Positions 16,356 to 61,580 of a DNA stretch of 64,000 bases are shown here, piece after piece. Below the pieces are notes generated by a model. It saw only the letters and a program-made list of their open reading frames with translations. It did not search any database and was not told the origin of the DNA. The stretch is taken from contig JAFYUS010000054.1 in assembly GCA_017549505.1 (NCBI GenBank), forward strand, positions 25,037 through 89,036, given 5' to 3'. This DNA is from Bacteroidales bacterium. GTDB lineage: Bacteria > Bacteroidota > Bacteroidia > Bacteroidales > UBA932. The number at the start of each line of letters is the position of its first letter. Position 1 is the stretch's first letter. Position numbers and translations under genes: made by a program.

Positions 16356-16464
16356 GCAAAATAACCGGCAGGTATTGATGTAAGTGACATGCCACCCCCG
16401 GCTAGGGGGTGCCTGTCGAAAGACAGGCGGGGGTCACTGGAATCAAACCTGCCGGTTATTTTGC
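16356..16464. repeat. Family A terminator-embedded element, short form
   Basis: The outer arms GCAAAATAACCGGCAGGT (16356-16373) and their exact reverse complement (16447-16464) form an 18-bp locus-specific stem. Inside are the conserved left block GACATGCCACCCCCGGCTA and right block CGGGGGTCACTGGAATCAAA. Between these is a short stem GCCTGTC-GAAA-GACAGGC with a GNRA tetraloop. It sits between two convergent genes and fits a bidirectional terminator. Related long copies are at 25528-25681 and 61430-61580. Confidence 0.85.
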
Positions 16465-16479
16465 CGTAAGGTGAATGCT

Positions 16480-17124
16480 TTATCGTATGAAGTTGGTCAT
16501 TACCGGCTTTTCCTTGACAGGGTCAGGGATACCGGCAGCCCTGCCGGCTTCTATGCATTTGAGAAGCCATGCCATGTTGCGGCCGAGTTCCCTCATGACC
16601 TGCATGCCTTCTTCGTCCTGACGCACCTGCTCCGGTGTGTTTCCATGTACCATGTTCCAGTATTTTGACGACACCACCGGCATGGACGAGATAGTGAAGT
16701 ACTTGTTGATCTGATCGAAAGCAGCTGTGGTGCCTCCTCTGCGGGCGCTGACGATTCCGGCAGCAGGTTTGTAGCGGTAGACTGCTCCCTTGCCGTAGAA
16801 AGCACGGTCCATGAATGAGGTCAGCGCTCCCGAAAGGGCAGCGTAATGAACCGGACTTCCGAATACGAAGCCATCAGCTTCCTTTGCCTTTGTGATGAAT
16901 TCATTGACTATGTCATCTATAACGCAGAGTCCGCTTGGCTTCTCGCCGTTCGGACCTCTTCTGCAGCATGCTCCGCATCCCAGGCAGCCTGAGATAGGCT
17001 TGGTTCCGAGCCAGAAGATTTCAGTTTCGATGCCCTCTGCATTGAGCTCCTTCTCCACCTCTGTCAGGGCGGTGTATGTGCAGCCCTCCTTATGCGGGCT
17101 TCCGTTTACAAGTATTACTTTCAT
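16480..17124 (-). CDS. Flavodoxin-fold NAD(P)H-dependent oxidoreductase / iron-sulfur flavoprotein
   Basis: 214 residues from the ATG of MKVILVNGSPHKEGCT; an upstream in-frame ATG at 17151 would overlap the -7 box. NGSPHKEGCTYTAL is the phosphate-binding loop for FMN, GSPVHYAALSGALTSFMDR is the second FMN loop, and GCLGCGACCRRG with a later Cys offers four cysteines that could bind an iron-sulfur cluster. This matches the NADPH-dependent FMN reductase/iron-sulfur flavoprotein group. The physiological substrate is unknown. It is transcribed alone. Confidence 0.85.
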   Translation of the reverse strand: MKVILVNGSPHKEGCTYTALTEVEKELNAEGIETEIFWLGTKPISGCLGCGACCRRGPNGEKPSGLCVIDDIVNEFITKAKEADGFVFGSPVHYAALSGALTSFMDRAFYGKGAVYRYKPAAGIVSARRGGTTAAFDQINKYFTISSMPVVSSKYWNMVHGNTPEQVRQDEEGMQVMRELGRNMAWLLKCIEAGRAAGIPDPVKEKPVMTNFIR

Positions 17125-17148
17125 GGGTTTCTTATGTTGTTCAACCGA

Positions 17149-17156
17149 CAAATATA
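17149..17156 (-). promoter_or_regulatory. Probable -7 box for the flavoprotein gene
   Basis: Minus strand TATATTTG matches the -7 consensus 25 bases before the ATG at 17124. A -33 box is not clear. Confidence 0.5.
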
Positions 17157-17238
17157 CAGAATATTATTGACTGTAATACATCCGAACCCACATGGTGGGC
17201 TGATATAGTGTAATTAAATCAAACTGCATAATCATAGT

Positions 17239-17352
17239 TACCTCCGTGACACGATTCGCCTTTTCTATGTTACGGAAGTGTCAAAAACAAATCATTTTGA
17301 GTCACTTTAGTGACCTCCGTGACATAGATTTTTGAATTTATGTCACGGAGGT
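17239..17352. repeat. Paired hairpin locus 2 (ACCTCCGTGACA)
   Basis: Two hairpins with the same stem start 74 bases apart. The second (17313-17352) has a perfect 14-bp stem ACCTCCGTGACATA and a 12-base loop. The first (17239-17280) has two mismatches in 13 positions. The spacing matches that of locus 3 (27079-27191), although the stem sequence is different. Confidence 0.75.
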
Positions 17353-17413
17353 TAATCTTCATTACTATATTAACCGTTAAGCATTTTTGCAAAACATCAC
17401 ATTGGGCAAAATT

Positions 17414-17447
17414 AAAGAAGCCGGCCCATTAGGGGTCGGCTTCGATC
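17414..17447 (-). terminator. Terminator of the EF-G2-type gene
   Basis: GAAGCCG pairs with CGGCTTC, and the stem continues with GCCC/GGGG. On the minus strand the hairpin is followed by a T-rich stretch (TTTAATTTT), 35 bases past the stop codon. Confidence 0.75.
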
Positions 17448-17481
17448 TTTAATTGACTTATATAAAGGTCTGTTTAAACTT

Positions 17482-19635
17482 TTAGTCTTCCTTCTCCTCT
17501 TCGAGGTAAGCCTTCAGGAGCTTCTCCTGTACATCGCCAGGTACCGGCTGGTAGTCAGCAAAGTCCATTGTGAAGGTTGCGCTACCTGATGAGAGAGAGC
17601 TGAGGGTTGTCGAGTAACGGTAGAGCTCTGCGAGAGGAACGCGTGCCTTGATCACTTCGAATCCCTTATCTGAACCCATTCCCTCGATGAGGGCGCGACG
17701 GTTCTGAAGGTCTGACATACATGCACCCATGTACTCTGATGGTGTAAGCACCTCAACATTGTAGATAGGCTCCATGATCTTAGGACCTGCGATACGGAAC
17801 GCTTCCTTGAATGCGTTACGAGCTGCGAGAACGAATGAGATTTCATTTGAGTCTACCGGATGCATCTTACCGTCGTAAACGTATACGCGGATGTCACGTG
17901 CAAGCGAACCTGTAAGAGGACCTTCGCTCATCTTCTCGTTGATACCCTTGAGGATAGCAGGCATGAAGCGTGCGTCGATAGCACCACCAACGATACAGTT
18001 GTAGTACTCGAGCTTACCGCCCCATGGAAGGTCGAATTCTTCCTTACCCTTGATGTTGAGGACAACTTCCTTGCCGTCCACCTTGAATCTGTTACCTGGG
18101 TCAACGCCTTCCTGATAAGGAGCGATGAGGAGGTGAACTTCACCGAACTGACCTGCTCCACCTGACTGCTTCTTGTGACGGTAGTCAGCACAAGCGACCT
18201 TGGTGATGGTCTCACGGTAAGAGATCTTAGGAGCCGAGAACTCGATCTCGAGCTTGTTCTCGTTCTGGAGTCTCCACTTGAGAGTATTTACGTGCTGCTC
18301 ACCCATACCCTTGAGGATGGTCTGCTTCTGCTCCTTGTGGTACTCGATGACGTATGTAGGATCCTCGGCAGCGATCTTTGCCATTGCGTCGCTTACCTTT
18401 TCCTCATCCTTAGCGTCCTTTGCCTTTACAGCACAACGATACTTGTAGTGCGGGAACTTGATGTCGAGATATGCGATGTCTGAACCAGGTGCGCAGAGAG
18501 TAACGTTTGTCTTTGCTGCACGGAGCTTCACTGTACATCCGATATCACCGGCCTGAAGTTCAGTAACCTTCTCCTTCTTCTTACCTGCAACGGCATAGAT
18601 AGCTGTAATTCTTTCCTTGTCGCCTGTTTCAGGATTTTCGAGGTCAGCTCCTTCAGTAAGCTTTCCTGACATAACCTTGAAGTATGCAACTTCTCCGAGG
18701 TGCTGCTCTACCGCGGTCTTATATATGAAGAGTGATACAGGTGCATCGACCTTGCACTCAAGTTCTTTTCCATCCTTAGTCACAACCTTGCGCTCTGCAG
18801 GAGATGCTGCTGTGCGGATTGTGAACTCCATCAGACGCTTGACTCCGATATCCTTCTTTGCAGAAAGACAGAAGATAGGCATCACATCGCCCTGGCGGAT
18901 ACCGATTCCGAGACCCTTTCTGATCTCATCCTCTGAAAGTACGCCCTGCTCGAAGAATGTCTCCATGAGGGTGTCATCGTACTCAGCTGCGCGCTCGATG
19001 AGAGCGTTTCTGAGTTCTTCAGCCTCTTCAAGCATGTTTGCAGGAATCTCGAGGTCCTGACGCTTGCCTGTATCTCCTTCGAAGCGATAATATTTCATCT
19101 TTAGAACATCCACGAAGCCGTCGAAGTCAGGTCCTACGGTAACAGGATACTGAACCACTACAGGCTTGTTTCCGAATGTCTCCTTCATTGATTCGAGAGT
19201 TCCCTCCCAATTTGCCTTATCACCATCAAGCTGGTTTACAGCCACGATCATAGGAATGCCGTATTCCTTTGCATAACGTGAGAAAATCTGAGTTCCGACT
19301 TCAACGCCCTGCTGTGCGTTCACTACGAGAACTCCAAGGTCACACACCTTGAAAGCCGACACTGCGCCACCCACGAAATCGTCTGCACCCGGAGTGTCGA
19401 TGATATTGAACTTGGTATCCATGAACTCGGCGTAAAGCGGAGTCGCATAGATGGACCTCTGGTTGATCTGTTCGATCTCGGCGTTGTCAGAAACAGTGTT
19501 CTTCGCCTCAACAGTACCTCTTCTGTCAATTACCTTACCTTCGTAAAGCATCGCTTCAGATAATGTGGTCTTACCTGACTTGGTGCTACCAAGCAGAACC
19601 ACATTACGGATGTTTTGTGTTGAATAAGTCTTCAT
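17482..19635 (-). CDS. Elongation factor G paralogue, EF-G2 type, with altered GTPase motifs
   Basis: 717 residues with all EF-G domains I-V (GKEEFDLPWGGKLEYYN in domain IV, EPIYNVEVLTPSEYMGACMSDL in domain V). The GTPase motifs differ from housekeeping EF-G. The P-loop is GSTKSGKTT (16-24), switch I reads NQRSIYATP in place of RGITI, switch II is DTPGADDF so that Ala84 replaces the catalytic His, and the guanine motif is NQLD (134-137) in place of NKxD. This matches the Bacteroidetes EF-G2 group, whose B. thetaiotaomicron member has been reported to support translation without GTPase activity and to be needed for gut colonisation. It is monocistronic. The housekeeping fusA is not in this window. 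Confidence 0.92.
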   Translation of the reverse strand: MKTYSTQNIRNVVLLGSTKSGKTTLSEAMLYEGKVIDRRGTVEAKNTVSDNAEIEQINQRSIYATPLYAEFMDTKFNIIDTPGADDFVGGAVSAFKVCDLGVLVVNAQQGVEVGTQIFSRYAKEYGIPMIVAVNQLDGDKANWEGTLESMKETFGNKPVVVQYPVTVGPDFDGFVDVLKMKYYRFEGDTGKRQDLEIPANMLEEAEELRNALIERAAEYDDTLMETFFEQGVLSEDEIRKGLGIGIRQGDVMPIFCLSAKKDIGVKRLMEFTIRTAASPAERKVVTKDGKELECKVDAPVSLFIYKTAVEQHLGEVAYFKVMSGKLTEGADLENPETGDKERITAIYAVAGKKKEKVTELQAGDIGCTVKLRAAKTNVTLCAPGSDIAYLDIKFPHYKYRCAVKAKDAKDEEKVSDAMAKIAAEDPTYVIEYHKEQKQTILKGMGEQHVNTLKWRLQNENKLEIEFSAPKISYRETITKVACADYRHKKQSGGAGQFGEVHLLIAPYQEGVDPGNRFKVDGKEVVLNIKGKEEFDLPWGGKLEYYNCIVGGAIDARFMPAILKGINEKMSEGPLTGSLARDIRVYVYDGKMHPVDSNEISFVLAARNAFKEAFRIAGPKIMEPIYNVEVLTPSEYMGACMSDLQNRRALIEGMGSDKGFEVIKARVPLAELYRYSTTLSSLSSGSATFTMDFADYQPVPGDVQEKLLKAYLEEEKED

Positions 19636-19700
19636 CAGTTTTTTGTGTTATTGTGTTTATAGTTATTTGTTCTTTCCGTGTCTTTTCAGACACATCCTCG

Positions 19701-19731
19701 CAAATCTAATAAAATATTGTCGCATTATCAA
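19701..19731 (-). promoter_or_regulatory. Promoter of the EF-G2-type gene
   Basis: Minus strand TTG at 19731-19729, a 20-base spacer, and TAGATTTG at 19708-19701 together make a complete Bacteroidetes promoter. It lies about 66 bases before the ATG at 19635, so a 5' leader of roughly 60 bases is expected. Confidence 0.7.
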
Positions 19732-19888
19732 CATTTCCCATAAGATTTTCCTGTATGTCGTCAGAAGACATACCGAAAGCGAGATAAAGAGCATTGTCAG
19801 CCAAGGCATGATCCGAGTAACATTCATCGATGCCTTTTCCAGTCATAAGTCTGCCGCAAAGGTGCAGGAATCTGATATCTTCATTCAT
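19706..19888 (-). CDS. Possible small protein of 60 residues
   Basis: This open frame from ATG (MNEDIRFLHLCGRLMTGKG) to TAG has codon choice like the neighbouring genes and an amphipathic helix pattern (HALADNALYLAFGMSSDDIQ). The frame extends 8 codons further to another ATG. It is upstream of the EF-G2 gene on the same strand, and its stop codon overlaps the EF-G2 -7 box. I do not recognise the family. It may be real because its composition is protein-like, but it has no clear promoter or ribosome-binding signal of its own. Confidence 0.42.
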   Translation of the reverse strand: MNEDIRFLHLCGRLMTGKGIDECYSDHALADNALYLAFGMSSDDIQENLMGNVDNATIFY

Positions 19889-20067
19889 AAGCGCAAGATT
19901 TAACACCAGCAAATCTGTCTGTAGTAATCGGAAAAACCAAAGTTTTGTGACGAAATCACTGGAAAAGGTCTCAGATTTTTCTTTTTTTTATCATTTTTTC
20001 CGTTTTTTAGTCAGTTTTTCCGATGTTTCGCAAGAATTTCCGGTTTAACACGGGCCTTCAGATAGGA

Positions 20068-20075
20068 TAATTTTG
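20068..20075 (+). promoter_or_regulatory. Probable -7 box for the XRE-rnhB gene run
   Basis: TAATTTTG matches TAnnTTTG, 24 bases before the ATG at 20099. Confidence 0.5.
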
Positions 20076-20098
20076 TCCATGAAATCAGAATTTCAGTC

Positions 20099-20485
20099 AT
20101 GGACAACACATCGATAAAGAAAAACATACGCACCAGAAGGAAAGCCAGAAGATACACTCAGGAAGAGATGGCCGACAAGATGGGCATGTCCCTGACCGCA
20201 TATCGCGATCTTGAAAAAGGAGAGACATCCATCGTAAACACGAATCTCCTGAAAATAGCCATGCTTCTTGATACGACCAGCGAGGAGCTTGTACTTGGCT
20301 ACCGTCCCGTCCAGATGGAAGGACCTGACCTGGAAGATGTACGGGAAGAATACTCTGGAAGGGTGGCCGCACTCGAAAGAAGGATTGCCGATCTTGAAAA
20401 ACTCGTACTTAGTCTGGAAGAAACGATCGCGACCAAGAACGAAATCATCACAATGCTCAAAAAATCCCTTGGCGAGGACAAATAG
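20099..20485 (+). CDS. XRE-family helix-turn-helix regulator with C-terminal coiled coil
   Basis: 128 residues. The N-terminal HTH spans about residues 6-62 (IRTRRKARRYTQEEMADKMG, then TAYRDLEKGETSI). A helical tail at about 78-122 has a heptad pattern (GRVAALERRIADLEKLVLSL) that probably serves for dimer formation. Proteins of this layout are frequent in Bacteroidetes, and their targets are mostly unknown. It ends 18 bases before rnhB and is preceded by its own -7 box. It may control the following genes or itself; no operator is obvious. Confidence 0.85.
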   Translation: MDNTSIKKNIRTRRKARRYTQEEMADKMGMSLTAYRDLEKGETSIVNTNLLKIAMLLDTTSEELVLGYRPVQMEGPDLEDVREEYSGRVAALERRIADLEKLVLSLEETIATKNEIITMLKKSLGEDK

Positions 20486-20491
20486 ATTGTG

Positions 20492-20499
20492 TATTTTTG
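20492..20499 (+). promoter_or_regulatory. -7-like box immediately before rnhB
   Basis: TATTTTTG lies only 4 bases before the ATG at 20504. If it is used, the transcript would be leaderless or start within the first codons, so either the promoter is inactive or a later start codon is used. Confidence 0.35.
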
Positions 20500-20503
20500 C
20501 AGA

Positions 20504-21115
20504 ATGGGCAAAGAAGCACATCTCTTGAATTATCTTAACGCCGATCTGATTGAAGCGGGATGCGACGAAGCTGGCAGAGGACCTCTGGCCGGCTCCGTTT
20601 TTGCTGCCGCCGTCATTCTTCCGAAAGATTTCCACCACCCACTTCTGAATGACTCCAAGAAGATGACCGAGAAAGCACGTGAAATCCTGCGTCCTATTAT
20701 CGAAAAGGAAGCCGTCGCATGGGCGGTTGAGGAAGTCACCGCTGAAGAAATCGATACGATCAACATACTCAATGCTTCCATAACCGGCATGCAGAGGGCG
20801 GTAAGAAGACTTATCGTCAAACCAGAGTTCCTGCTTATCGACGGAAACCGGTTCAAGCCTTTCGACGGATATCAGTATCAGTGCGTGGTCAAAGGTGACG
20901 GAAAGTACGCATCGATTGCCGCCGCATCTGTCCTGGCAAAGACATACAGGGACGAATACATGAGGAATCTTGCAAAGGAATACCCGCAGTACGGATGGGA
21001 CCGAAACATGGGATACCCTACCAAGGAACATATAGAAGCTATCGTTGCCCACGGCTACACGCCTTATCACAGGAAAAGCTTCCATCTGAAACAACTTGAA
21101 CCAACTTTATTTTAA
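20504..21115 (+). CDS. rnhB: Ribonuclease HII
   Basis: 203 residues from the ATG of MGKEAHLLNYLNADL; an upstream GTG at 20489 reads through a -7-like box and is less likely. The catalytic signature EAGCDEAGRGPLAGSV supplies the first Asp-Glu pair (21-22), and LIDGNRF and VKGDGKYASIAAASVLAKTY supply the remaining acidic and conserved residues. It cuts the RNA strand of RNA-DNA hybrids and removes misincorporated ribonucleotides. It is followed by the S46 peptidase gene with a 2-base gap. Confidence 0.96.
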   Translation: MGKEAHLLNYLNADLIEAGCDEAGRGPLAGSVFAAAVILPKDFHHPLLNDSKKMTEKAREILRPIIEKEAVAWAVEEVTAEEIDTINILNASITGMQRAVRRLIVKPEFLLIDGNRFKPFDGYQYQCVVKGDGKYASIAAASVLAKTYRDEYMRNLAKEYPQYGWDRNMGYPTKEHIEAIVAHGYTPYHRKSFHLKQLEPTLF

Positions 21116-21117
21116 AT

Positions 21118-23298
21118 ATGAAAAGAATTGTAACAATCATCACGGCTTTGACGGTAAGTCTCAGCGCATTGGCTGACGAGGGAATGTGGATGCTTCCTCT
21201 CCTTCAGAAGATGAACGCGGACGCCATGAAGGAACTGGGATGTGAACTCACTCCCAAACAGATCTACGACATAAACAACAGCTCCCTCAAGGATGCCATC
21301 GTCCAGTTCGGAAGAGGATGTACAGGCGAGATCATCTCCAAGGAAGGTCTCCTGGTCACTAACCACCACTGCGGATACGGCAACATCCAGAAGCTCAGCA
21401 GTGTGGAGCACGACTACCTCAAGGACGGCTTCTGGGCTATGAACCGCAACGAAGAGCTGCCATGCGAAGGTCTTACAGTGACGTTCCTGGAATACATGAA
21501 GGATGTCACTCCTGTGATCGACAAGGCGATAAAGAAGGCACGCAAGGAGTTCGGAGACGACGAGAAGAAAGTCGAAGAGGCACAGGTGAAGGCCATGACT
21601 GCTCTGGCTGAAAAGGCAGAGAAGGAAAATCCTCATTGCCATGTGCAGGTGACACAGTTCTATAACAAGAATGTATATTACCTTATAGTATATAAGACAT
21701 ACAGCGACATACGTTTCGTAGGAGCACCGCCTTCATCCATCGGAAAGTTCGGTGCGGACACAGACAACTGGATGTGGCCTCGCCATACAGGTGACTTCTC
21801 GATGTTCCGTGTCTATGCAGACAAGGACAACAATCCTGCAGACTATTCACCTGAAAACGTTCCGCTCAAGGCAAAGAACCATCTGAGAATATCCATGAGC
21901 GGAGTACAGGAAGGCGATTTCACCATGATCATGGGTTATCCAGGCCGTACCACACGCTTCCAGACTTCTCCGGAGCTGAAGTTCCAGATAGAAAAGAACG
22001 ACATCAGCATCGCCGCACGCACCATCCGCCAGGATGTGCTTCTCGAGGATATGCTTGCCGATCCGAAGGTGAAGATCCAGTATGCAAGCAAGTATTCAAG
22101 TTCTTCGAATGCATGGAAAAAATGGCAGGGAATGAAGCTTGCCTTCGACAAGCTGGACATCATCGGAAGGGCAGAGCAGGAGGAGGCCGAGTTTACAGAA
22201 TGGGTGAACGCCAATGCAAAGCGCCAGGCTGCATACGGCACGGCACTCAAGGACCTCGCAGAGGGAATCGAAGCCGGAAAGAAAGCCAACTTCGCATTCA
22301 CAAAAGCAACGGAGACAGTATATAATATAGAGCTTACCAGATTCGGAATCTACCTCAAGCTATATTCAGGCAGAGGTCTCATAGACGGTACAGACACCCT
22401 CTCAGCCCTCAGATCCGCATATGAAAGGTTTGCTTCACAGTACGGAGACTACTCTGTAGGCACAGACAGGAAGGTAGCAAAGGCCATGATGAAGCATTAC
22501 CGTGAAATCGCTGATCCGGAAAACTACCTCAAGGGAATCGGGGAAGACTTCGCTACAATGGATATCGACGCATTCGTGGACAATCTCTTTGACAACAGTG
22601 CATTGACTTCAGCTGAAAGCCTGAAGGCCGCAATCGAGGAGAAGGGAGCTGACATCCTCAAGGACCCTGCAGTAATCATCGGAATGGCAATCTATAACGA
22701 ATGCCTTGATGCACAGAATCTTGCAGCAGTGTCTGATGATAACCTCGCCAAGGCACGTCAGACATATACCGCAGGACTTCTGGAATGGAAGAAGGGAGAG
22801 CCTTCATATCCTGACGCAAACTTCACCATGCGTCTGACCTACGGAACCGTAAAGGGATACTCTCCTAAGGATGCCGTAGTCTACAAACACTACACCACCC
22901 TAGACGGAGTCATGGAGAAGGAAGATCCCGACAACTGGGAATTCGTTGTCCCTGAAAAGCTTAAGGAACTCTGGAAAAACAAGGACTACAGCTCGGCTGA
23001 CGGTTTCCGCAATTATGGCACTCCTGACGGAAAGATGCCGACATGCTTCCTCAGCAACAACGACATCACCGGAGGAAACTCAGGCAGCCCGATCATGAAC
23101 TCGCGCGGACAGCTTATCGGTCTTGCCTTCGACGGCAACTGGGAGTCGATGAGCAGCGACATCATGTTCGAGCCGGACCTCCAGAGATGCATCAACGTGG
23201 ACATCCGCTACGTACTCTTCATCGTCGACAAGTTCGGCGGCGCAGGCCATCTCATCGATGAAATGGATCTGGTATGGTCAACAGGAAAGGATTATTAA
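21118..23298 (+). CDS. Dipeptidyl-peptidase of family S46, DPP7-type
   Basis: 726 residues with a signal peptide ending near residue 19 (LSALADEGMW). It has a chymotrypsin-like double barrel with a helical insertion. The triad is His84 in TNHHCGYG, Asp226 in RHTGDFSMF and Ser655 in GGNSGSP. The residue that sets substrate preference in the family is Gly673 (GLAFDGNWE), as in Porphyromonas DPP7, which prefers hydrophobic residues at P1; DPP11 has Arg there. It releases dipeptides from oligopeptides in the periplasm, feeding amino acid catabolism. It lies 2 bases after rnhB and 11 bases before the Mrp gene. Confidence 0.93.
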   Translation: MKRIVTIITALTVSLSALADEGMWMLPLLQKMNADAMKELGCELTPKQIYDINNSSLKDAIVQFGRGCTGEIISKEGLLVTNHHCGYGNIQKLSSVEHDYLKDGFWAMNRNEELPCEGLTVTFLEYMKDVTPVIDKAIKKARKEFGDDEKKVEEAQVKAMTALAEKAEKENPHCHVQVTQFYNKNVYYLIVYKTYSDIRFVGAPPSSIGKFGADTDNWMWPRHTGDFSMFRVYADKDNNPADYSPENVPLKAKNHLRISMSGVQEGDFTMIMGYPGRTTRFQTSPELKFQIEKNDISIAARTIRQDVLLEDMLADPKVKIQYASKYSSSSNAWKKWQGMKLAFDKLDIIGRAEQEEAEFTEWVNANAKRQAAYGTALKDLAEGIEAGKKANFAFTKATETVYNIELTRFGIYLKLYSGRGLIDGTDTLSALRSAYERFASQYGDYSVGTDRKVAKAMMKHYREIADPENYLKGIGEDFATMDIDAFVDNLFDNSALTSAESLKAAIEEKGADILKDPAVIIGMAIYNECLDAQNLAAVSDDNLAKARQTYTAGLLEWKKGEPSYPDANFTMRLTYGTVKGYSPKDAVVYKHYTTLDGVMEKEDPDNWEFVVPEKLKELWKNKDYSSADGFRNYGTPDGKMPTCFLSNNDITGGNSGSPIMNSRGQLIGLAFDGNWESMSSDIMFEPDLQRCINVDIRYVLFIVDKFGGAGHLIDEMDLVWSTGKDY

Positions 23299-23309
23299 CA
23301 GAATTGGAT

Positions 23310-24371: not shown

Positions 24372-24389
24372 CCATATAAAATCAGTACT

Positions 24390-25529
24390 ATGAAAAACTT
24401 CATGTTTCCACTCGTCACTGCCGTTGCAGTCATGATGTCTTCATGTGCTTCCGCACCGGAAGACACATCACTCAAGGATGCATATGCAGACAGCTTCATG
24501 ATCGGCTGCGCAGTCAACCCCCTCCATACCAGCGGCCGCCTGGAACAGGCGAACGAGCTGATATTCAAACATTTCAACGCACTCTCTCCAGAGAACTGCC
24601 TCAAACCGGAGGCAGTACATCCGAGACCGGACGTATGGGACTTCAGGGAAGCAGATGAATATGTTCAGTTCGGCGAGGATCACGACATGTGGATACTCGG
24701 CCATACCCTCGTATGGCACAACCAGACTCCTTCGTTCTATTGGGAGAACAAGGACGGTTCGCCTAAGACCCGCGAGGAGCTAATCGAAACCATGCGTCAG
24801 CACATCGAGACAGTGGCAGGCAGGTATGCCGGCCGGATCGATGCCTGGGACGTCGTCAACGAGATCATCGGCGAATTCGGTGAATACCGCAACAAGGGAT
24901 GGGTCAAGGCTTTCGGCGGCGACGGATATGAAGTCGTAAGGAACGCATTCATTTTTGCGGACCGCTATGCTCCTGATGCAGAGCTGTACTACAACGACTT
25001 CAACGTATGGAGGCCGGCACATGTCGACGGAATCGTGACCATGGTCAAGAAACTCCAGGCTGAAGGAATCAGAATCGACGGAGTGGGCATACAGGCGCAT
25101 TGGGGACTCAATTATCCCAAGACAGAGTATATAGAGCACACAATCGACACTCTTTATTCATTGGGAGTCAAGGTCATGATTACCGAACTTGACGTTGATG
25201 TCCTCCCTATTACAAGGGAAGGTCAGGTCATCGGACAGTCGCTTACCGACCCTCTCTACCAGCATGAGGAGTTCGAAGAGTATCTGGATCCATACAAGGA
25301 CGGTCTGCCTGCAGAAGTGGAGCAGCAGCTGGCCGACAGATATGAGGAGCTCTTCCGCATATTCTACAACCGTCGTGACAAGATCGACCGTGTCACTCTC
25401 TGGGGTCTTACAGACGATTCTTCGTGGAAGAACGGCTATCCTGTGCCCGGCAGAACCAATTATCCTCTTCTCTGGAACAGAGACTACACCCCGCACGCCG
25501 CACTACAATCCATATTAGCGATTCCATAA
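24390..25529 (+). CDS. Endo-1,4-beta-xylanase, glycoside hydrolase family 10, lipoprotein
   Basis: 379 residues. A signal with lipobox MSSC (Cys19) implies membrane anchoring, possibly at the cell surface. The catalytic TIM barrel has LGHTLVWHNQTPSF, acid/base Glu158 in WDVVNE and nucleophile Glu266 in ITELDVD, all standard for GH10. It cuts the xylan backbone within the chain. It starts 18 bases after the Mrp gene and closes the gene run that began with the XRE regulator. There are no carbohydrate-binding modules. With GH43 and the arabinose operon it points to arabinoxylan use. Confidence 0.96.
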   Translation: MKNFMFPLVTAVAVMMSSCASAPEDTSLKDAYADSFMIGCAVNPLHTSGRLEQANELIFKHFNALSPENCLKPEAVHPRPDVWDFREADEYVQFGEDHDMWILGHTLVWHNQTPSFYWENKDGSPKTREELIETMRQHIETVAGRYAGRIDAWDVVNEIIGEFGEYRNKGWVKAFGGDGYEVVRNAFIFADRYAPDAELYYNDFNVWRPAHVDGIVTMVKKLQAEGIRIDGVGIQAHWGLNYPKTEYIEHTIDTLYSLGVKVMITELDVDVLPITREGQVIGQSLTDPLYQHEEFEEYLDPYKDGLPAEVEQQLADRYEELFRIFYNRRDKIDRVTLWGLTDDSSWKNGYPVPGRTNYPLLWNRDYTPHAALQSILAIP

Positions 25530-25681
25530 AAAAAACAATGGGTATTAATGTAAGCGACATGCCACCCCCGGCTAGGGGTCGCGAGCGGCAAGGCAAACAG
25601 TCCAGTGGACTTTTGCAGCGAGCAGCCTGCGGCAGCAGGTTTAGGGCGGGGGTCGCTGGAATTAAACCCATTGTTTTTTTT
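25528..25681. repeat. Family A terminator-embedded element, long form
   Basis: The outer arms AAAAAAAACAATGGGT (25528-25543) and its exact reverse complement (25666-25681) form a locus-specific stem with A- and T-runs. Inside are the conserved ends GACATGCCACCCCCGGCTA and GGCGGGGGTCGCTGGAAT. The middle insert contains small stems AGTCC-AGT-GGACT and CCTGC-GGCA-GCAGG. The insert is almost identical to that at 61430-61580. The innermost pair AGCGAC/GTCGCT here corresponds to AGTGAC/GTCACT in the short copy, a compensating change. It directly follows the xylanase stop. Confidence 0.88.
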
Positions 25682-25683
25682 AC

Positions 25684-25691
25684 TATATTTG
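25684..25691 (+). promoter_or_regulatory. Probable -7 box for the MATE gene
   Basis: TATATTTG begins 3 bases after the right arm of the family A element and 39 bases before the ATG at 25723. The element therefore lies directly over the place where upstream promoter contacts would fall. Confidence 0.5.
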
Positions 25692-25722
25692 CGGCCGTTT
25701 TTTGAAAACTTAGTAGTGTAGT

Positions 25723-27917: not shown

Positions 27918-27926
27918 GCAGGTAAT

Positions 27927-51973: not shown

Positions 51974-51989
51974 CTGATATTTATAAATG

Positions 51990-53531: not shown

Positions 53532-53538
53532 AATTGTA

Positions 53539-53997: not shown

Positions 53998-54024
53998 CTT
54001 ACCTTCTCTCTCCCCTTCTGTCCT

Positions 54025-54396: not shown

Positions 54397-54793
54397 AAGC
54401 TATTTCTCTGATCTTTGCAATCATCGACACCAATCCGTTTGCACGTGTAGGAGACAAATTCTCCTTTAATCCTATCTTCTCCACAACGGAGAAATCCGAT
54501 GAAAGTATCTCATTTGCAGTTCTGCCGGAATAAAGTCCTATCAGAAGTGAAATTATACCCTTGGTAATGATGGCATCACTGTCTGCATTGAAGAAGATTT
54601 TTCCATCTTCAACCTTATAATCCAGCCATACTCTTGATTGACAACCTTTTATAAGTTTATCATCAGTCTTGGCACTATCTGGATAGTCTGTAAGTGACTT
54701 TCCAAGTTCGATCAGATATTCGTATTTGTCCAGCCACTCTTCATACATCGAGAATTCCTCGACAATGGCGTTTTCTGCTTCCTGTAATGTCAT
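54374..54793 (-). CDS. sufE: SufE-family sulfur acceptor
   Basis: 139 residues. LIKGCQSRVWL contains the Cys that takes persulfide from SufS, and NADSDAIITKGIISLLIGLY and LSPTRANGLVSMI are family motifs. It passes sulfur from the desulfurase to the scaffold. It begins 6 bases after sufS and overlaps the following gene by 23 bases. Confidence 0.95.
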   Translation of the reverse strand: MTLQEAENAIVEEFSMYEEWLDKYEYLIELGKSLTDYPDSAKTDDKLIKGCQSRVWLDYKVEDGKIFFNADSDAIITKGIISLLIGLYSGRTANEILSSDFSVVEKIGLKENLSPTRANGLVSMIAKIREIAYGTEGLV

Positions 54794-54799
54794 GATTCC

Positions 54800-56029
54800 T
54801 TATTGCAACATCTTTATGGCTTTATCCAAGCACCTAATAAAATATTCTGCTTCCTCAAGCGTGTTATATGGAGCTAGAGACACTCTCAGCATACCTGTGA
54901 CACCAAACCGGGTCATAAGAGGTTCAGCACACATCTGACCTGACCTGACAGCAATTCCCATCTTATCAAGAATCAAAGCCAGATCCTCATGATGAATACC
55001 TTTTACAGTAAATGAGAAAAGAGGAATCTTTTCTTCATTTGTTCCTCGTGGAACTCCATAAAGGGTTATTCTTTCATCTGATCTCAGATAATCGAGCAAA
55101 TAATCCCTTATTTTATCTAATTTATCCACTAATTCATTATCATTCAATAAATTAGTAAATTCAATAGCTGACTTTAATGTAGCTGCAGATGCAAAATTCT
55201 GAGTACCGGCCTCAAACTTCATAGGGAGCGGAGCATATGTTGTCTCCTCGAAAGAAACAGTACCAACCATCTCGCCTCCTCCCATATATGGAGGCATCTC
55301 ATCAAGAAGTTCCTTCTTTCCATAAAGAACTCCTGTTCCGGTGGCAGCATACAACTTATGGCCGGAGAATACATAAAAATCACAATCAAGATCCTGGACA
55401 TCCACCTTGGAATGAACCACTCCCTGAGCTCCATCTATAAGGACAGGAATTCCTGAAGCGTGGCATTTCTCTATTATTTCCTTGACCGGATTGATCAATC
55501 CAAGAACATTGGAAATATGAGTCACTGCCATTATCCTGGTCTTGTCAGAAAGAATTTCATCAAGCATTTCAGTCCTGAGATGACCGCTGTCGTCTACAGG
55601 AAGCACCTTCAGAACAGCACCTTTCCTTTTGCACATCATCTGCCACGGAACAATGTTGGAATGATGTTCAGCTTCAGTGACTACAATTTCATCACCTTCC
55701 TTGACAAACGCTTCTCCGAAACTGAATGCTACAAGATTTAAAGCAGCTGTAGTTCCACTTGTAAATATTATTTCTTCCCTGCTTATTGCATTGATAAAAT
55801 CCCTTACAGAATCTCTTGCCTGTTCATATGCCTGAGTCGCCTCATCAGCTAGACGATGAACAGCTCGGTGTATGTTTGCATTTGACTCCGAAGTGATCTT
55901 TGTCCACATATCAATTACAGACTGAGGTCTCTGACTTGTAGCAGCATTATCAAAATACACAAGATCCTTACCGTACACCTTTCTGGAAAGTGCAGGAAAA
56001 AGGGATCTTATTTCTTCAATTCTAGCCAT
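54800..56029 (-). CDS. sufS: Cysteine desulfurase, SufS type
   Basis: 409 residues from the ATG of MARIEEIRSLFPAL. An ATG 3 codons upstream is possible; the farther open frame passes through the -7 box and is rejected. DLVYFDNAATSQRPQSVID is the conserved start, FSGHKLYAATGTGVLYG contains the PLP lysine, and VRSGQMCAEPLM the catalytic Cys. It releases sulfur from cysteine for Fe-S assembly with the adjacent SufE. The scaffold genes sufBCD are not in this window. Confidence 0.95.
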   Translation of the reverse strand: MARIEEIRSLFPALSRKVYGKDLVYFDNAATSQRPQSVIDMWTKITSESNANIHRAVHRLADEATQAYEQARDSVRDFINAISREEIIFTSGTTAALNLVAFSFGEAFVKEGDEIVVTEAEHHSNIVPWQMMCKRKGAVLKVLPVDDSGHLRTEMLDEILSDKTRIMAVTHISNVLGLINPVKEIIEKCHASGIPVLIDGAQGVVHSKVDVQDLDCDFYVFSGHKLYAATGTGVLYGKKELLDEMPPYMGGGEMVGTVSFEETTYAPLPMKFEAGTQNFASAATLKSAIEFTNLLNDNELVDKLDKIRDYLLDYLRSDERITLYGVPRGTNEEKIPLFSFTVKGIHHEDLALILDKMGIAVRSGQMCAEPLMTRFGVTGMLRVSLAPYNTLEEAEYFIRCLDKAIKMLQ

Positions 56030-56070
56030 AAAAGTCATTGATACACGCGCGCATACACGCAATAAGCCTG

Positions 56071-56078
56071 CAAATTTA
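56071..56078 (-). promoter_or_regulatory. Probable -7 box for the suf-folK-glyS operon
   Basis: Minus strand TAAATTTG, 42 bases before the sufS ATG at 56029. Confidence 0.5.
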
Positions 56079-56111
56079 GCAATTTTGCTCGTTCTTTTAC
56101 AGAATTTTAGA

Positions 56112-56119
56112 TATTTTTG
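56112..56119 (+). promoter_or_regulatory. Probable -7 box for ruvA
   Basis: TATTTTTG matches TAnnTTTG. It implies a leader of about 60 bases before the ATG at 56181. Confidence 0.5.
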
Positions 56120-56180
56120 CAATGTACCGCCGTTGCAGGTACTGAATAAAAAGCAGAAACAAATCTAAAAACATAAGAAA

Positions 56181-56768
56181 ATGATAGACTACATAAAGGG
56201 TAACGTAGCAGAATTAACTCCTACAGACCTGGTCCTGGAATGCTACGGAATCGGATATAGAATACTGATTTCTCTCCAGACTTATGAAGTACTGAACGGA
56301 AAATCTGAAACTACCGTATACATACATCACTACCTGAGAGAAGATGAAGAACTGTATTATGGTTTCGCAACCAAAGATGAAAGAGAACTGTTCAGACTCC
56401 TTATCGGAGTATCTGGAATAGGCGCATCAACAGCCAGAATGATGTTATCTTCTCTCACATCCGATGAAATAAGAAATGCAATCATTGCAGAAGATATAAA
56501 TAAGATAAAGAGCATAAAGGGTATTGGACTGAAGAGTGCCCAAAGGCTCATTTTAGAGCTGAAGGATAAAGTTGTCGGAGGAAAAGGAAGTGACACTACC
56601 CCACTATTCCAGACAGGATCTCCAGGAGTTACTGACGAAGCTGTCACCGCACTTGTGATGCTGGGCTTCACAAAAGCGAATGTAAACAAAGCCGTAGCAG
56701 CTGTTCTCAAGGAATCACCAAAAGCGACTTTAGAAGAAATAATAAAATTAGCTTTGAAAAGATTATAA
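56181..56768 (+). CDS. ruvA: Holliday junction branch migration complex subunit RuvA
   Basis: 195 residues, usual length. The N-terminal OB domain begins MIDYIKGNVAELTPTDLVLE. Two helix-hairpin-helix motifs follow (LIGVSGIGASTARMML, IKGIGLKSAQRLILELKD), and the C-terminal RuvB-binding domain (about 147-195) includes VTALVMLGFTKANVNKAV. It binds the four-way junction and loads RuvB. It converges with mnmG across the 40-base palindrome. Confidence 0.97.
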   Translation: MIDYIKGNVAELTPTDLVLECYGIGYRILISLQTYEVLNGKSETTVYIHHYLREDEELYYGFATKDERELFRLLIGVSGIGASTARMMLSSLTSDEIRNAIIAEDINKIKSIKGIGLKSAQRLILELKDKVVGGKGSDTTPLFQTGSPGVTDEAVTALVMLGFTKANVNKAVAAVLKESPKATLEEIIKLALKRL

Positions 56769-56806
56769 AAAGAAAAAGAGTTCCACGTGGAACTCTTTTT
56801 CTTTTT
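56767..56806. terminator. 40-base perfect palindrome: bidirectional terminator of ruvA and mnmG with parS-like centre
   Basis: The left arm AAAAAGAAAAAGAGTTCCAC is followed at once by its exact reverse complement. A-rich and T-rich ends suit termination in both directions, and the stop codons of ruvA and mnmG border it within 2 bases. The central 14 bases are GTTCCACGTGGAAC. Confidence 0.8.
56780..56793. promoter_or_regulatory. parS-like site 1
   Basis: GTTCCACGTGGAAC agrees with the inner part of the widely conserved ParB site (TGTTNCACGTGNAACA). The outermost bases are A and T instead of T and A. It is located between ruvA and mnmG. mnmG (gidA) neighbours parAB and the origin in many bacteria, but no parA or parB gene is in this window. 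Confidence 0.6.
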
Positions 56807-56807
56807 T

Positions 56808-58910
56808 TTATCTACCAAAATACACAAGTAGGACTGATATATCAGCAGGAGAAATTCCCGATATTCGAGAAGCCTGAGCTATTGTTCTAGGTGCATATTT
56901 TTTAAGTTTCTGTCTACATTCAATTGACAGACTTTCAACTTTATCAAAATCAAAATCTTCAGGAATGGCAAGATTTTCAAGCCTCATGATCTTATCAGCC
57001 ATCTGCTGTTCCCTTTCAATATATCCCTTATATTTGATGGATATTTCAGATGAATCCAATATTTCTCTACAGTAGTTCCTATTAATCTTAGAGTTCATAT
57101 ATTCCCTGTCTAGCTTCGAAACAGGATATTCAGTATTGAACTTCAAAGTATATACTGCATCAGAATATGAAGTAGTTTCACATTCTTTATTAATAAACTG
57201 GCTGACAGAATCTCTATTACCATATTCTAAAAGATCAGAATAAACAGAAGATTCTTTTAAGATACCTGTTAAAGGAGAAAGAAATTCTTCTTCTATATTG
57301 ATATTGAATTTAGAAAAAGTTCCACGTGGAACTAAATTAAAAATATCAGATAATTTTGTCTGAGGCCTCGATATCAATTCAGCAATACGTCTACGGGACG
57401 GTATTTCAGAAGTTCCCACAGAAACAAGATAATCATTGATATATTCTGGTTTGATAGACGCGTCCTGGAAGAAATTATTGAATCTTTCAATAGAATCATA
57501 CTTTCTCATAGTATAATCATACCTGAACTTATCGGCCAGACCTATTTCAAAAGAAGACGGAGTAAGTCTTATATCAGCATTATCCTGGCGCAAAAGAATC
57601 CTGTACTCTGCTCTGGAAGTAAACATTCTATAAGGTTCATCAACTCCCTTTGTAATAAGGTCATCTATCAGGACGCCGATATATGCCTGGTCACGCTTAA
57701 GGATAAACGGATCCTTACCGGCTACCTTAAGATGCGCATTGATTCCCGCCATCAATCCCTGGGCGGCAGCTTCTTCGTAACCTGTAGTTCCGTTTACCTG
57801 TCCGGCAAGGAAAAGACCGTCAATCTGCTTCAATTCAAGCGTAGGCTTGAGTTGAGTAGGGTCAAAATAATCATATTCGACCGCATAAGCTGGTCTATAA
57901 ACTTTAGCATTCTCCAGTCCCTCTATATTATGAAGAGCTTCCATCTGAATATCGAGTGGAAGAGATGAAGAAAATCCCTGGAGATAATATTCGTTGGTTC
58001 CTCTTCCCTCTGGCTCAAGGAAAAGCTGATGTTCGTTCTTTCCGGCAAAGGTCCTGAGCTTATCTTCAATACTAGGACAATATCTTGGTCCTATTCCAGT
58101 GATCAATCCGGAGAACAATGGAGAATCACCAAATCCACTCTTTAGGATATCATGTACCTTCTCATTTGTATGAACAATGAAGCAAGGCATCTGGGGAGTA
58201 CCGTTCTGCGCAGTCGAAAGATAAGGTAGGTAAGAAAACTTTTCAGGATCTTCATCACCAAACTGATGGATCATATTCGAAGTGTCGACAGAAGATATAT
58301 CAATACGAGGCGGAGTACCTGTCTTCATTCTTGCAGTAGCCACACCCATGGAAACAAGTTGTGAAGTCAGACCATGGGAAGGCAACTCCCCTATTCGTCC
58401 TCCTTCGAACATCGTACGTCCTATGAACATCCTACCTTCAAGAAAGGTTCCTGCAGTCAGAATAACCGTCTGAGAATTGAATTTTGCACCTGTAGTTGTA
58501 CATACACCCGAAATTTTTGAACCATCAAAAAGAAAACCAGTCACAGTATCTTGGTAAATATCTAATTTACAGGCACTTTCGAGCAATTTTCTCCAATACA
58601 AGGAAAATTGGATTTTATCACATTGAGCACGAGGACTCCACATTGCAGGACCTTTGGACCTGTTGAGCATCCTGAACTGAAGAGTAGAAGCATCAGTTAT
58701 AATGCCTGTATATCCCCCAAGAGCATCTATCTCTCTGATTATCTGACCTTTAGCAATACCTCCAATAGCAGGATTACAAGACATCTGTGCAAATTTGTTC
58801 ATATCCATAGATATAAGAAGCACAGATGAACCCATCCTTGATGCAGCCATGGCGGCTTCACAACCGGCATGACCACCACCTACGACTATAACATCATAAA
58901 CTTTATTCAT
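56808..58910 (-). CDS. mnmG: tRNA uridine-5-carboxymethylaminomethyl modification enzyme MnmG (GidA)
   Basis: 700 residues, about 70-80 more than usual (roughly 620-630). The FAD-binding start [20 protein letters not shown] and the motifs [20 protein letters not shown] and [17 protein letters not shown] are standard. The conserved C-terminal part resumes with [17 protein letters not shown] and ends [12 protein letters not shown]. Between about residue 526 ([16 protein letters not shown]) and 605 lies sequence I cannot match to the family, and its beginning is encoded by a parS-like palindrome. With MnmE it modifies the wobble uridine of several tRNAs. It starts 3 bases after ybeY. Confidence 0.93.
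57319..57332. promoter_or_regulatory. parS-like site 2, inside mnmG
   Basis: A second perfect GTTCCACGTGGAAC, 539 bases from site 1. It encodes Val-Pro-Arg-Gly-Thr in MnmG (VPRGT) at the start of the unmatched segment. No other copy was found in the window. Confidence 0.6.
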
Positions 58911-58913
58911 ACA

Positions 58914-59333
58914 CTAAACCAGCTCTCTTAATGAAAGATAATAATTCTCTTTCTTTCTCATCATCGCGATATCTTCGTCATTATGGTCGTCGTAACCTAT
59001 AAGATGAAGAACACCATGTACTATTACACGATAGAGTTCCTCTGAAAATTCAGTACCGTATTCGACAGCATTCTCTCTGACTGAATCGACACTGATGAAA
59101 AGATCTCCGGAAAGCCTGTCACCCTCACAATAATCAAAAGTGATTATATCCGTGAAATAATCATGCTGAAGGTATTTCTGATTTACATCAAGTATATAAT
59201 TGTCGGAACAGAATATTATCGAAATATCTCCGATCTTTCGGATTTCACTTTCAGCAACAAGTCTTAACCACTTGCTGTTTCTGGTTTTACCCTTGAATAT
59301 GAAGTCAGTATCTTCGAAATAATAAGAAATCAT
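58914..59333 (-). CDS. ybeY: Endoribonuclease YbeY (rRNA maturation factor)
   Basis: 139 residues. HGVLHLIGYDDHNDED contains the three-His zinc motif (HGxLHLxGYDH); TDIITFDYCEGDRLSGDLFIS precedes it as in the family. It acts in 16S rRNA 3' end maturation and ribosome quality control. It is the first gene of a unit with mnmG, 3 bases apart. Confidence 0.95.
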   Translation of the reverse strand: MISYYFEDTDFIFKGKTRNSKWLRLVAESEIRKIGDISIIFCSDNYILDVNQKYLQHDYFTDIITFDYCEGDRLSGDLFISVDSVRENAVEYGTEFSEELYRVIVHGVLHLIGYDDHNDEDIAMMRKKENYYLSLRELV

Positions 59334-59349
59334 GGCTAAAATATTTTTG

Positions 59350-59357
59350 CAAATCTA
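59350..59357 (-). promoter_or_regulatory. Probable -7 box for ybeY-mnmG
   Basis: Minus strand TAGATTTG, 16 bases before the ybeY ATG. It touches TATTTTTG on the plus strand (59342-59349), so two opposite -7 boxes lie back to back. Confidence 0.5.
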
Positions 59358-59373
59358 CAAAATGTATAAAAAG

Positions 59374-59404
59374 TTTGAAATAAAAAATATAATTTCTAAC
59401 TTTA
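59374..59404 (+). promoter_or_regulatory. Promoter of tonB
   Basis: TTTG at 59374-59377, a 19-base spacer, and TAACTTTA at 59397-59404 (one base off TAnnTTTG). The ATG follows 35 bases later. Confidence 0.55.
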
Positions 59405-59439
59405 CCGGGCAAAATGGAAAATAAAAACTAACGATCAAT

Positions 59440-60129
59440 ATGGAAATCAAAAAGTCAGAAAAAGCCAACTTGGAAAACAAGAAACTTCTCTTTGTTGAGA
59501 TAGGACTTGTAGTTGCGTTGGGTATCACTCTCTTTGCATTCGAGTGGACAAGCAAGGAAACAAAGGTATCAACTCTCGAAGATACTACTGAAGTACTTAT
59601 TGAAGAGGAAATCATTCCTATCACACAGGAAACTCCACCTCCTCCACCAGCAGCACCAAAGATTCCTGTTCTTTCAGACCAGATCGATATCGTAGATGAT
59701 GAAATCGAACTTGAGGATGACCTTTTCATGAACCTCGAGGATGATGCAAGCCTTGGAGTTGAAATCATGGACTATATTGAGGTTGAAGAGGAAGTAGTTG
59801 AAGAGGAAGCTATTCCATTCCAGCTCGTAGAGGAAAAACCTTCATTCCAGGGTGGTGACGCTAACCAGTTCTCAAAGTGGGTGAACCAGAGACTTGTATA
59901 TCCTGAGATTGCAAAGGAAAACGGTGTACAGGGTCGTGTTACTCTTCAGTTCACAGTTGAGAAGGACGGTACTGTAACAAAGGTAAAGGTTCTCCGTGGT
60001 GTAGACCCATCACTTGACAAAGAGGCAGTACGTGTAGTATCAATGTCTCCAAAGTGGAAGCCAGGAAAGCAGAGAGACCGCGCGGTACCTGTAACCTATA
60101 CATTCCCTGTTATCTTCCAGTTGAGATAA
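59440..60129 (+). CDS. tonB: Energy transducer TonB
   Basis: 229 residues. A short cytoplasmic N-terminus, one membrane helix at about 18-36 (LLFVEIGLVVALGITLFAFE), a Pro-rich and acidic periplasmic stretch (ETPPPPPAAPKIPV, then many Glu/Asp), and a C-terminal TonB domain at about 140-229 (NQRLVYPEIAKENGVQGRV, LQFTVEKDGTVTKVKVLRGV). It passes proton-motive energy to outer-membrane receptors such as SusC-type transporters. It stands alone, followed by a strong terminator. The partner exbBD genes are not seen here. Confidence 0.95.
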   Translation: MEIKKSEKANLENKKLLFVEIGLVVALGITLFAFEWTSKETKVSTLEDTTEVLIEEEIIPITQETPPPPPAAPKIPVLSDQIDIVDDEIELEDDLFMNLEDDASLGVEIMDYIEVEEEVVEEEAIPFQLVEEKPSFQGGDANQFSKWVNQRLVYPEIAKENGVQGRVTLQFTVEKDGTVTKVKVLRGVDPSLDKEAVRVVSMSPKWKPGKQRDRAVPVTYTFPVIFQLR

Positions 60130-60150
60130 TTATTTGATTTACAAATATAT

Positions 60151-60185
60151 AATAAGTCCGATCAATATACTTGACCGGACTTATT
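60151..60185 (+). terminator. Terminator of tonB
   Basis: AATAAGTCCG and CGGACTTATT pair perfectly, with further pairing in the middle (ATCAA/TTGA). The T-rich tail TTATTTTAATT follows. Confidence 0.85.
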
Positions 60186-60198
60186 TTAATTAAACATT

Positions 60199-61389
60199 AT
60201 GGCAAAAATTACAGTAGAACAGCATAACGAAAAAGCAGTCTTCGTCGGTGTGATAAAGCAGGGTGATGACGAAAGACAGGTTATGGAATATCTTGACGAA
60301 CTTGAGTTTCTCGCTGAGACAGCGGGTGCTGTCGGTGTCAAGAAATTTATCCAGAAGGTAGACAGACCCGATTCGAGGACATATATAAGAAGCGGTAAAC
60401 TTCAGGAAATAAGGGAATATATTGAGGAAAATGATATAGAAGTAGTTATATTCGACGACGAACTCTCCCCTACTCAGCTGAGAAATATCGAACGCGAACT
60501 TAATATAAGAATCCTTGACAGAACAAACCTGATTCTTGATATTTTCGCTCAGAGAGCAAAGACTGCATATGCAAAGATGCAGGTAGAACTTGCTCAATAT
60601 CAATATCTTCTCCCAAGACTGACAAGAATGTGGACCCACCTTGAAAGACAGAAAGGAGGTATCGGTATGAGAGGTCCAGGTGAAACTCAGATTGAGACAG
60701 ACCGCCGTATAATCCAGGATAAGATAGCAAGGCTTAAGGAACAGCTGAAAAAGGTTGACAAACAGATGGCTTCACAGCGCGGAAACAGGGGTTCTTTAGT
60801 GCGTATTTCGCTTGTAGGATATACAAACGTAGGTAAGAGCACCTTAATGAATTTACTGGCTAAAAGCGACGTTTTTGCAGAAAACAAACTGTTCGCAACG
60901 CTGGATACCACAGTAAGAAAGGTAGTCATCGAAAACGTACCGTTCCTGCTTAGTGACACTGTAGGATTCATCAGAAAGCTACCTCATCAGCTTGTAGAAG
61001 CTTTCAAGAGTACTTTGGATGAGGTAAGAGAAGCTGATATCCTTATGCATGTAGTGGATATATCACACCCTAATTTCGAGGATCATATCAGAGTCGTAGA
61101 GGAAACATTAAGGGATATCAAGGCTATAGATAAGCCTATTTTCGTCGTATTCAATAAGATTGATGCATACAGATACGAAGAATATGATGAGTTCTCTCTG
61201 GAACCTAAAAAACAGGAAAACTACACTCTTGACGAATTCAAGAACAGTTGGATAGCAAAGGAAAATACACCATGTATATTCATCTCCGCCCGTGAAAAGA
61301 TCGGCATAGACAAACTCCGCGGAGACTTATACAAAATGGTAGCAGAAATCCATGCAGGTCGTTACCCTTTCGATAATTTCCTTTGGTAG
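60199..61389 (+). CDS. hflX: Ribosome-associated GTPase HflX
   Basis: 396 residues. An N-terminal HflX domain (VIFDDELSPTQLRNIERELN, then ILDRTNLILDIFAQRA) and linker RGPGETQIETDRR precede the GTPase core: GYTNVGKSTLMN (G1), DTVGFIRKLPHQ (G3), NKID (G4). It splits stalled or hibernating ribosomes under stress. It is separated from tonB by a terminator, so it needs its own promoter, which I could not locate with confidence. Confidence 0.97.
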   Translation: MAKITVEQHNEKAVFVGVIKQGDDERQVMEYLDELEFLAETAGAVGVKKFIQKVDRPDSRTYIRSGKLQEIREYIEENDIEVVIFDDELSPTQLRNIERELNIRILDRTNLILDIFAQRAKTAYAKMQVELAQYQYLLPRLTRMWTHLERQKGGIGMRGPGETQIETDRRIIQDKIARLKEQLKKVDKQMASQRGNRGSLVRISLVGYTNVGKSTLMNLLAKSDVFAENKLFATLDTTVRKVVIENVPFLLSDTVGFIRKLPHQLVEAFKSTLDEVREADILMHVVDISHPNFEDHIRVVEETLRDIKAIDKPIFVVFNKIDAYRYEEYDEFSLEPKKQENYTLDEFKNSWIAKENTPCIFISAREKIGIDKLRGDLYKMVAEIHAGRYPFDNFLW

Positions 61390-61429
61390 CGTATATTGGA
61401 GCGATATTCAGGACGCACACATATATATA

Positions 61430-61580
61430 AAATAAATAGGAAGTTTGATGTAGATGACATGCCACCCCCGGCTATGGGTCGCGAGCGGCAAGGCAAACAG
61501 TCCAGTGGACTTTTGCAGCGAGCAGCCTGCGGCAGCAGGTTTAGGGCGGGGGTCACTGGAATCAAACCCACTATTTATAT
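61430..61580. repeat. Family A terminator-embedded element, long form, second copy
   Basis: The outer arms around ATAAATAG (61432-61439) and CTATTTAT (61571-61578) are locus-specific. The ends GACATGCCACCCCCGGCTA (last base T-shifted by one substitution) and GGCGGGGGTCACTGGAAT are conserved. The internal 80 bases, with CAGTCCAGTGGACTTTTG and CCTGCGGCAGCAGG, are the same as at 25575-25655. It lies 41 bases past the hflX stop. Confidence 0.88.

Follow-up and report, generated by a model that had tools for sequence, protein, structure and literature searches.

Miniature inverted-repeat transposable elements (MITEs) and ERIC-type palindromes are small non-coding mobile units, found near genes, whose sequence can fold over most of its extent, and attC sites and the ends of IS200/IS605 elements are recognized as a folded single strand rather than as duplex. 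Here we describe a palindromic element present in three copies in a 64,000-nucleotide stretch of contig JAFYUS010000054.1 from a Bacteroidales bacterium (hereafter the window) and compare it with these and other repeats. In the portions consulted of PMC10969869 and PMC3733652, which also name MITEs and ERIC-type palindromes, Rickettsia palindromic elements (RPEs) are described as palindromes of up to ~150 bp, with several families per genome, that occur both outside genes and, in frame, within unrelated ones. The same portion of PMC3733652 describes repetitive extragenic palindromic (REP) and REPIN sequences as palindromes between convergent or unidirectional genes, with some inside genes.

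RPEs are the nearest known kind, a likeness drawn from description: the element works like an RPE, both are palindromes of similar size found between genes and in frame within them, and, as far as the consulted portions go, truB is struck in both. Unlike RPEs, the element belongs to another phylum and combines a conserved core, folded as a three-way junction, with arms conserved in pairing alone. It shares with REP sequences and their REP-associated tyrosine transposases (RAYTs) a palindromic form, convergent or unidirectional settings, some intragenic copies and a GTAG- or GGAG-like foot (42 of 142 copies); however, its unit of 100–150 bp is 3–5 times longer than the 20–40 bp of a REP, the foot lies inside the palindrome and is not an unpaired terminal tag, and RAYT genes are not flanked by it. 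By these two tested features, RAYT flanking and unit with tag, the element is not a REP/RAYT system. It resembles MITEs and ERIC-type palindromes in being small, non-coding, close to genes and foldable over most of its length, yet it has no conserved terminal inverted repeat, its ends being the least conserved part across 142 copies. A folded single strand would be its recognized form, as for attC sites and IS200/IS605 ends, but it is tied to no integrase or Y1 enzyme and carries no cassette.

We consider it probable that the element is a family of non-autonomous, RPE-like mobile palindromic DNA, ~100–150 bp long, that inhabits one large Bacteroidales genus, moves as a whole palindrome and acts through one folded strand. 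That the entire palindrome, with its arms, is the unit gained or lost is supported by empty sites in relatives and by the kinship of arms between unrelated loci.

Copies in the window and their fold

The original prediction placed three copies in the window, and all three are borne out: one short (16356–16464) and two long (25528–25681 and 61426–61582, the ends of the third being revised here), the long form having an extra hairpin region; these are also the two size forms among the listed copies elsewhere. All three carry the predicted flanks, GACATGCCACCCCCGGCTA at the left and GGCGGGGGTC(A/G)CTGGAAT at the right. Their divergent outer arms pair as proposed, by eye over 17 perfect bp in copy 1, over 15–16 bp in copy 2 and imperfectly in copy 3. 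A compensating change at the inner edge holds between copy 1 (AGT/ACT) and copy 2 (AGC/GCT) and fails in copy 3, where GAT/ACT is incompletely paired. RNA folding gave a z score of −10.7 for copy 1 (versus 200 shuffles); for copy 2, its inner 131 nt scored −2.8. The parts of the copies, with the basis of each call, are as follows:

16356..16379, + strand: copy 1, left outer arm (P1); read, RNA fold
16380..16382, + strand: copy 1, left side of the internal loop (GTA); RNA fold, 142-copy comparison
16383..16388, + strand: copy 1, left inner stem (AGTGAC); RNA fold, covariation
16386..16435, + strand: copy 1, conserved core GACATGCC...GGGGGTC, three-way junction; RNA fold, covariation
16433..16438, + strand: copy 1, right inner stem (GTCACT); RNA fold, covariation
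16442..16464, + strand: copy 1, right outer arm; read, RNA fold
25528..25549, + strand: copy 2 (long), left outer arm; read
25556..25654, + strand: copy 2, core and extended second hairpin region; read, RNA fold
25661..25681, + strand: copy 2, right outer arm, between the end of a GH10 gene and the promoter region of a MatE gene
61426..61449, + strand: copy 3 (long), left outer arm; read
61456..61554, + strand: copy 3, core and extended second hairpin region; read
61561..61582, + strand: copy 3, right outer arm; read
61587..61617, no strand assigned: ordinary terminator hairpin adjoining copy 3, outside the element; a terminator hairpin lies here in many relatives too

In 25 short copies from the genome of the window and its relatives, the fold comprises a long outer stem (P1, 18 bp counted), a 3 × 3 internal loop, a stem P2 and a three-way junction with the hairpins P3 (CCCCC-GGCTA-GGGGG) and P4. 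Two-sided changes occur at 18 of 18 P1 pairs, 3 of 9 P2-side pairs and 5 of 7 P4 pairs; the pairing of P3 is untestable from covariation because P3 is almost invariant. Across these copies, 86.2% of cells are paired, versus 42.7–52.4% with slid partners, and the covariation score of 0.491 exceeds those of slid partners (0.098–0.186) and of shuffled sequences (0.140), which substantiates the predicted structured element with genuine covariation. We also compared 142 distinct copies, a set confined to those with an accepted GGGGGTC-like right end and away from locus ends. Inner-stem positions 1–3 are Watson–Crick paired in 136, 131 and 115 of them, respectively, and the internal loop reads GNA/GNA in 79 of the 124 outside a GC-rich subfamily (described below). 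The inner core is made up of an inner stem ending in GAC/GTC, the hairpin CCCCC-GGCTA-GGGGG, another hairpin whose sequence is free, and GGGGGTC; the outer ends show no sequence conservation. The identity of the element probably resides in this core, with the arms retaining pairing only.

Distribution and comparison of sites

The genome of the window (G000; G numbers denote genomes and L numbers loci) is 2.13 Mb in size and 77.8% complete. A core 19-mer matched it 18 times at ≤2 mismatches, versus 0 for the reversed control; one match (L017, G000:C19:61408) is a half element, in which the core start is followed by an unrelated terminator hairpin, and another (L018) carries a single core change. 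The suggested covariance-model search of this genome and its relatives, for which we built the model from short copies of both and scored at most 10 candidates per genome, matched 77 of 400 same-genus genomes at E ≤ 0.001. An exact core 23-mer was found in at least 109 stretches of genome contigs; among the matches listed, the hosts of 80 stretches are Bacteroidales, Bacteroidia or Bacteroidaceae, nearly all of them metagenome bins. Single matches at 3 mismatches are partly chance, and the reversed control also gives 1–2 matches in many genomes. Rfam 15 gave no match at gathering in the window; in four loci it gave three matches at E ≤ 1, all of them outside the element. Phages and plasmids did not match window positions 25540–25670, and IMG/VR held no exact match to the core 23-mer. 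Within a literature scope that excluded subscription journals and preprints, strings retrieved only Streptomyces work sharing one 14-base string, and topics retrieved no account of the element family in Bacteroidales.

Sites without the core were read by eye, and 14 of them are collinear with an occupied site (copy 1, one; copy 2, five; L001, three; L012, three; L011, two). Nine have no hairpin, four have an unrelated short hairpin and one has the stem of the element. At the copy 1 locus, the core is absent within 330 nt of the gene end in 29 of 29 relatives' loci, of which only G328 is collinear; its site, TAGCCTATTGCCGTAAGG, contains no hairpin. At copy 2, all five collinear loci (of eight) lack the element, four having no hairpin and G299 a short terminator. 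One L001 site has no hairpin and two have unrelated ones, and none of the three L012 sites has any. The L011 locus is more varied: G337 has a stem without the core, G236 an inverted decayed copy and G241 an unrelated hairpin, and five loci are non-collinear. In the loop of G337, GAATATCG from the element persists, oppositely oriented, and we therefore read this site as a loss of the core. Three loci without the element at L016 have ordinary terminators, with a non-collinear upstream side. Between the same two genes, the element is present in L157/L164 and absent in L098, and L022, L082, L153 and L108 are one locus with unrelated arms. Among 28 readable relatives' loci at copy 3, the core is present in G245, G356 and G025; a decayed long form occurs in G135 (two contigs), a second palindromic repeat (family B, below) in G025 and G122, and a terminator hairpin in many relatives; G000 also retains such a hairpin, next to the element.

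Copies also lie within genes: open frames cross the element in several relatives (as read from sequence; expression as protein is not implied). Pfam domains are found on both sides of it in MurB (L168), TruB (L053 and L093, inserted at different positions) and PrmC (L172 and L179, in opposite orientation), and shikimate kinase (aroK, L079) shows two matched stretches. Matches on one side only occur at L118 (contig end), L147 (radical SAM), L080 (SufBD core) and L018 (pseudouridine synthase). To sample the murB linker we chose 42 genomes that carry the element elsewhere or are near carriers; 38 matched and 30 loci were fetched, and of the 29 readable loci, 5 have the core (four exact, one with two mismatches), 1 has a remnant and 23 lack it, some of the latter holding other inserts. 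A further short repeat in the same linker and in other genes encodes peptides such as CHFERSGSGDEKS or CHSERSEES (L041/L356, L118, L018, L341, L368).

Gene context was counted in 80 of the at least 109 stretches. Of 47 copies outside open reading frames (ORFs) with both neighbors called, 22 lie between convergent genes (+−), 18 have both neighbors antisense to the core (−−), 7 have both sense (++) and none lies between divergent genes. A de-duplicated set of 112 copies gave 40 convergent, 34 antisense, 9 sense and 0 divergent; a further 17 copies lie inside ORFs and 12 have one neighbor. Genes were called with a crude script that took the longest ORFs, so some of the 'inside ORF' copies are spurious. 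A T-run of ≥4, a predicted terminator feature, stands right of the arm at 23 of 72 loci.

Arms, core orientation and strand

The original prediction had the arms differ completely between copies, which is not the case: recognizably related arms occur in some copies from unrelated loci. Among 7520 pairs of arms from non-orthologous copies, 12 agree at ≥27/36 (0 in 20 shuffles) and 30 at ≥24/36 (shuffle mean 0.25), and part of the arm, at least, therefore travels with the unit. The GC-rich subfamily (18 of 142 copies) was left out of this and the following strand test, and near-duplicates were also removed from the 112-copy set. The core is inverted within similar arms in L020 versus L188 and in G000 versus G236 and G337 (L011 locus); L020, L165 and L188 belong to one locus, at which both orientations of the core occur. 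Between L043 and L035, the loop GTA is swapped for TCC, the exact complement of the opposite side. The A-run in the left arm of copy 2 is missing from relatives that hold the right-side T-run, a single case that suggests inverted copying of target sequence. In yeast, according to the portion consulted of PMC8604942, template switching between inverted repeats homogenizes their arms and inverts the spacer; both signs are seen in the element (L035/L043; L020/L188; L011 locus).

P1 mismatches are asymmetric when read on the core strand, with G·T outnumbering A·C by 43 to 11 in 112 copies and, by locus cluster, by 42 to 12 over 72 (20 loci versus 4, with 2 ties). Because the excess persists in 34 copies with both neighbors antisense (19 versus 2), it is tied to the core strand and not to the genes. 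This asymmetry suggests selection on one folded strand, be it DNA or RNA.

We propose that one core strand, folded as single-stranded DNA or RNA, would be the recognized form and that an enzyme would move the non-autonomous element. Template switching between inverted repeats would keep the arms complementary and flip the core, and it probably homogenizes the arms. The copies that survive are found chiefly right after genes, at positions where their hairpin might also act as a terminator, and in frame in protein linkers, as judged by open frames.

Proposed mobility and its alternatives

Several observations weigh against the mobile palindrome. No transposase or recombinase is tied to the element, and we saw no clean target-site duplication, with a possible 4-bp TTGC repeat at copy 1 (n = 1, by eye). 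Either gain or loss may account for the differences between compared sites, G337 keeps a stem without the core at one site, as the original prediction expected, and several sites common to diverged species have intact cores, which fits selection too. In related arm pairs, 165 single changes that break a pair stand against 61 compensated double changes, which weighs against rapid homogenization of the arms, and the wobble asymmetry might be mutational in origin. Decayed copies are under-counted because the searches required a nearly intact core. Finally, the element occurs in 33 of 38 genomes with a close RAYT versus 44 of 362 without (Fisher 8e-22, kinship uncorrected).

This co-occurrence, together with the foot, four Y1 (PF01797) matches in G000 and one RAYT (G241, L141/L189) that has a copy ~80 bp upstream, would fit an unusual GTAG-type REP element moved in trans by a RAYT (Y1) transposase, which we regard as unlikely. 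The core flanks none of the four Y1 ORFs in G000. Relatives of the L141 RAYT occur in 317 of 400 genomes, and a check for RAYT genes flanked by the ends of the element found the core within 1.5 kb at 1 of 60 loci (L141 type, 1 of 30; L047 type, 0 of 30), where ~2 are expected by chance. The RAYT flanks that we read (L193, L196, L200, L208) hold other short repeats on both sides, and the length of the element is at odds with a REP. By the flanking test, RAYT as the mover is rejected, and the genome co-occurrence keeps it as an alternative. An immobile element that selection preserves at the 3' ends of mRNAs, as a structured RNA or a terminator, is similarly improbable in our view: the strong covariation, the lack of copies between divergent genes, the T-runs, the shared sites with intact cores and the strand-fixed wobble bias speak for it, but most collinear relatives examined lack the element, copies lie within coding genes and in both orientations to their neighbors, and copy 3 adjoins a separate terminator. 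We consider it very improbable that only the core moves, landing in loops of pre-existing terminator hairpins, as originally proposed. The multi-copy, structured and apparently mobile character of the element stood up, and the G337 stem, the locus-specific outer arms and the T-runs at part of the loci are compatible with such landing; however, the hairpin was kept without the element at 1 of 14 collinear sites and not at the other 13, where it is absent (9) or unrelated (4). The arms pair even inside coding genes, conservation extends beyond the supposed insertion point to the inner stem and the GNA loop, and the separate terminator beside copy 3 also speaks against landing.

If the mobile palindrome is correct, RPE-type palindromes that add segments to conserved, often essential proteins are also widespread in gut Bacteroidales, on a plan that differs from RPEs in its fixed inner fold and its free yet always-pairing arms. 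It would open to test the co-evolution of repeat arms, by template switching or selection, and the enzyme for an element without conserved ends, and it would caution that strong covariation and a gene-end location are insufficient proof of a functional RNA. A bolder and rather doubtful extension is that this mobile DNA is defined by an internal folded three-way junction, with ends of no fixed sequence: one folded strand would be the substrate, and inverted copying, in part of target sequence, would rebuild the ends, so that every insertion would create its own long hairpin. The element and family B, which follows the same plan around another core, would then form a superfamily.

Family B is likewise palindromic, with arms particular to each locus and a conserved core of another sequence (CCTCCCACGACTTCGTCGCGGGCCCCTCCCG type), and is intergenic at L164, L265, L257 and L333; a strict pattern matches 8 of 338 loci, and a second pattern gave no match in the window. 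RAYT genes of the genus are bounded on either side by short palindromic repeats that differ from gene to gene (L193, L196, L200, L208; L049). The GC-rich subfamily (core 68–70 nt) is a recent amplification. Its arms are very similar between loci, and two copies sometimes lie 250–290 bp apart; its loci are:

L081, L099, L102, L103, L113, L121, L133–L135, L152, L156, L160, L162, L163, L175, L185

Paired copies in opposite orientation, ~700 bp apart, occur at L026, L080 and L145. A separate intergenic inverted repeat at 15707–15775 of the window weakly matches an unrelated microRNA family on both strands (E 0.00035, far below the gathering score).

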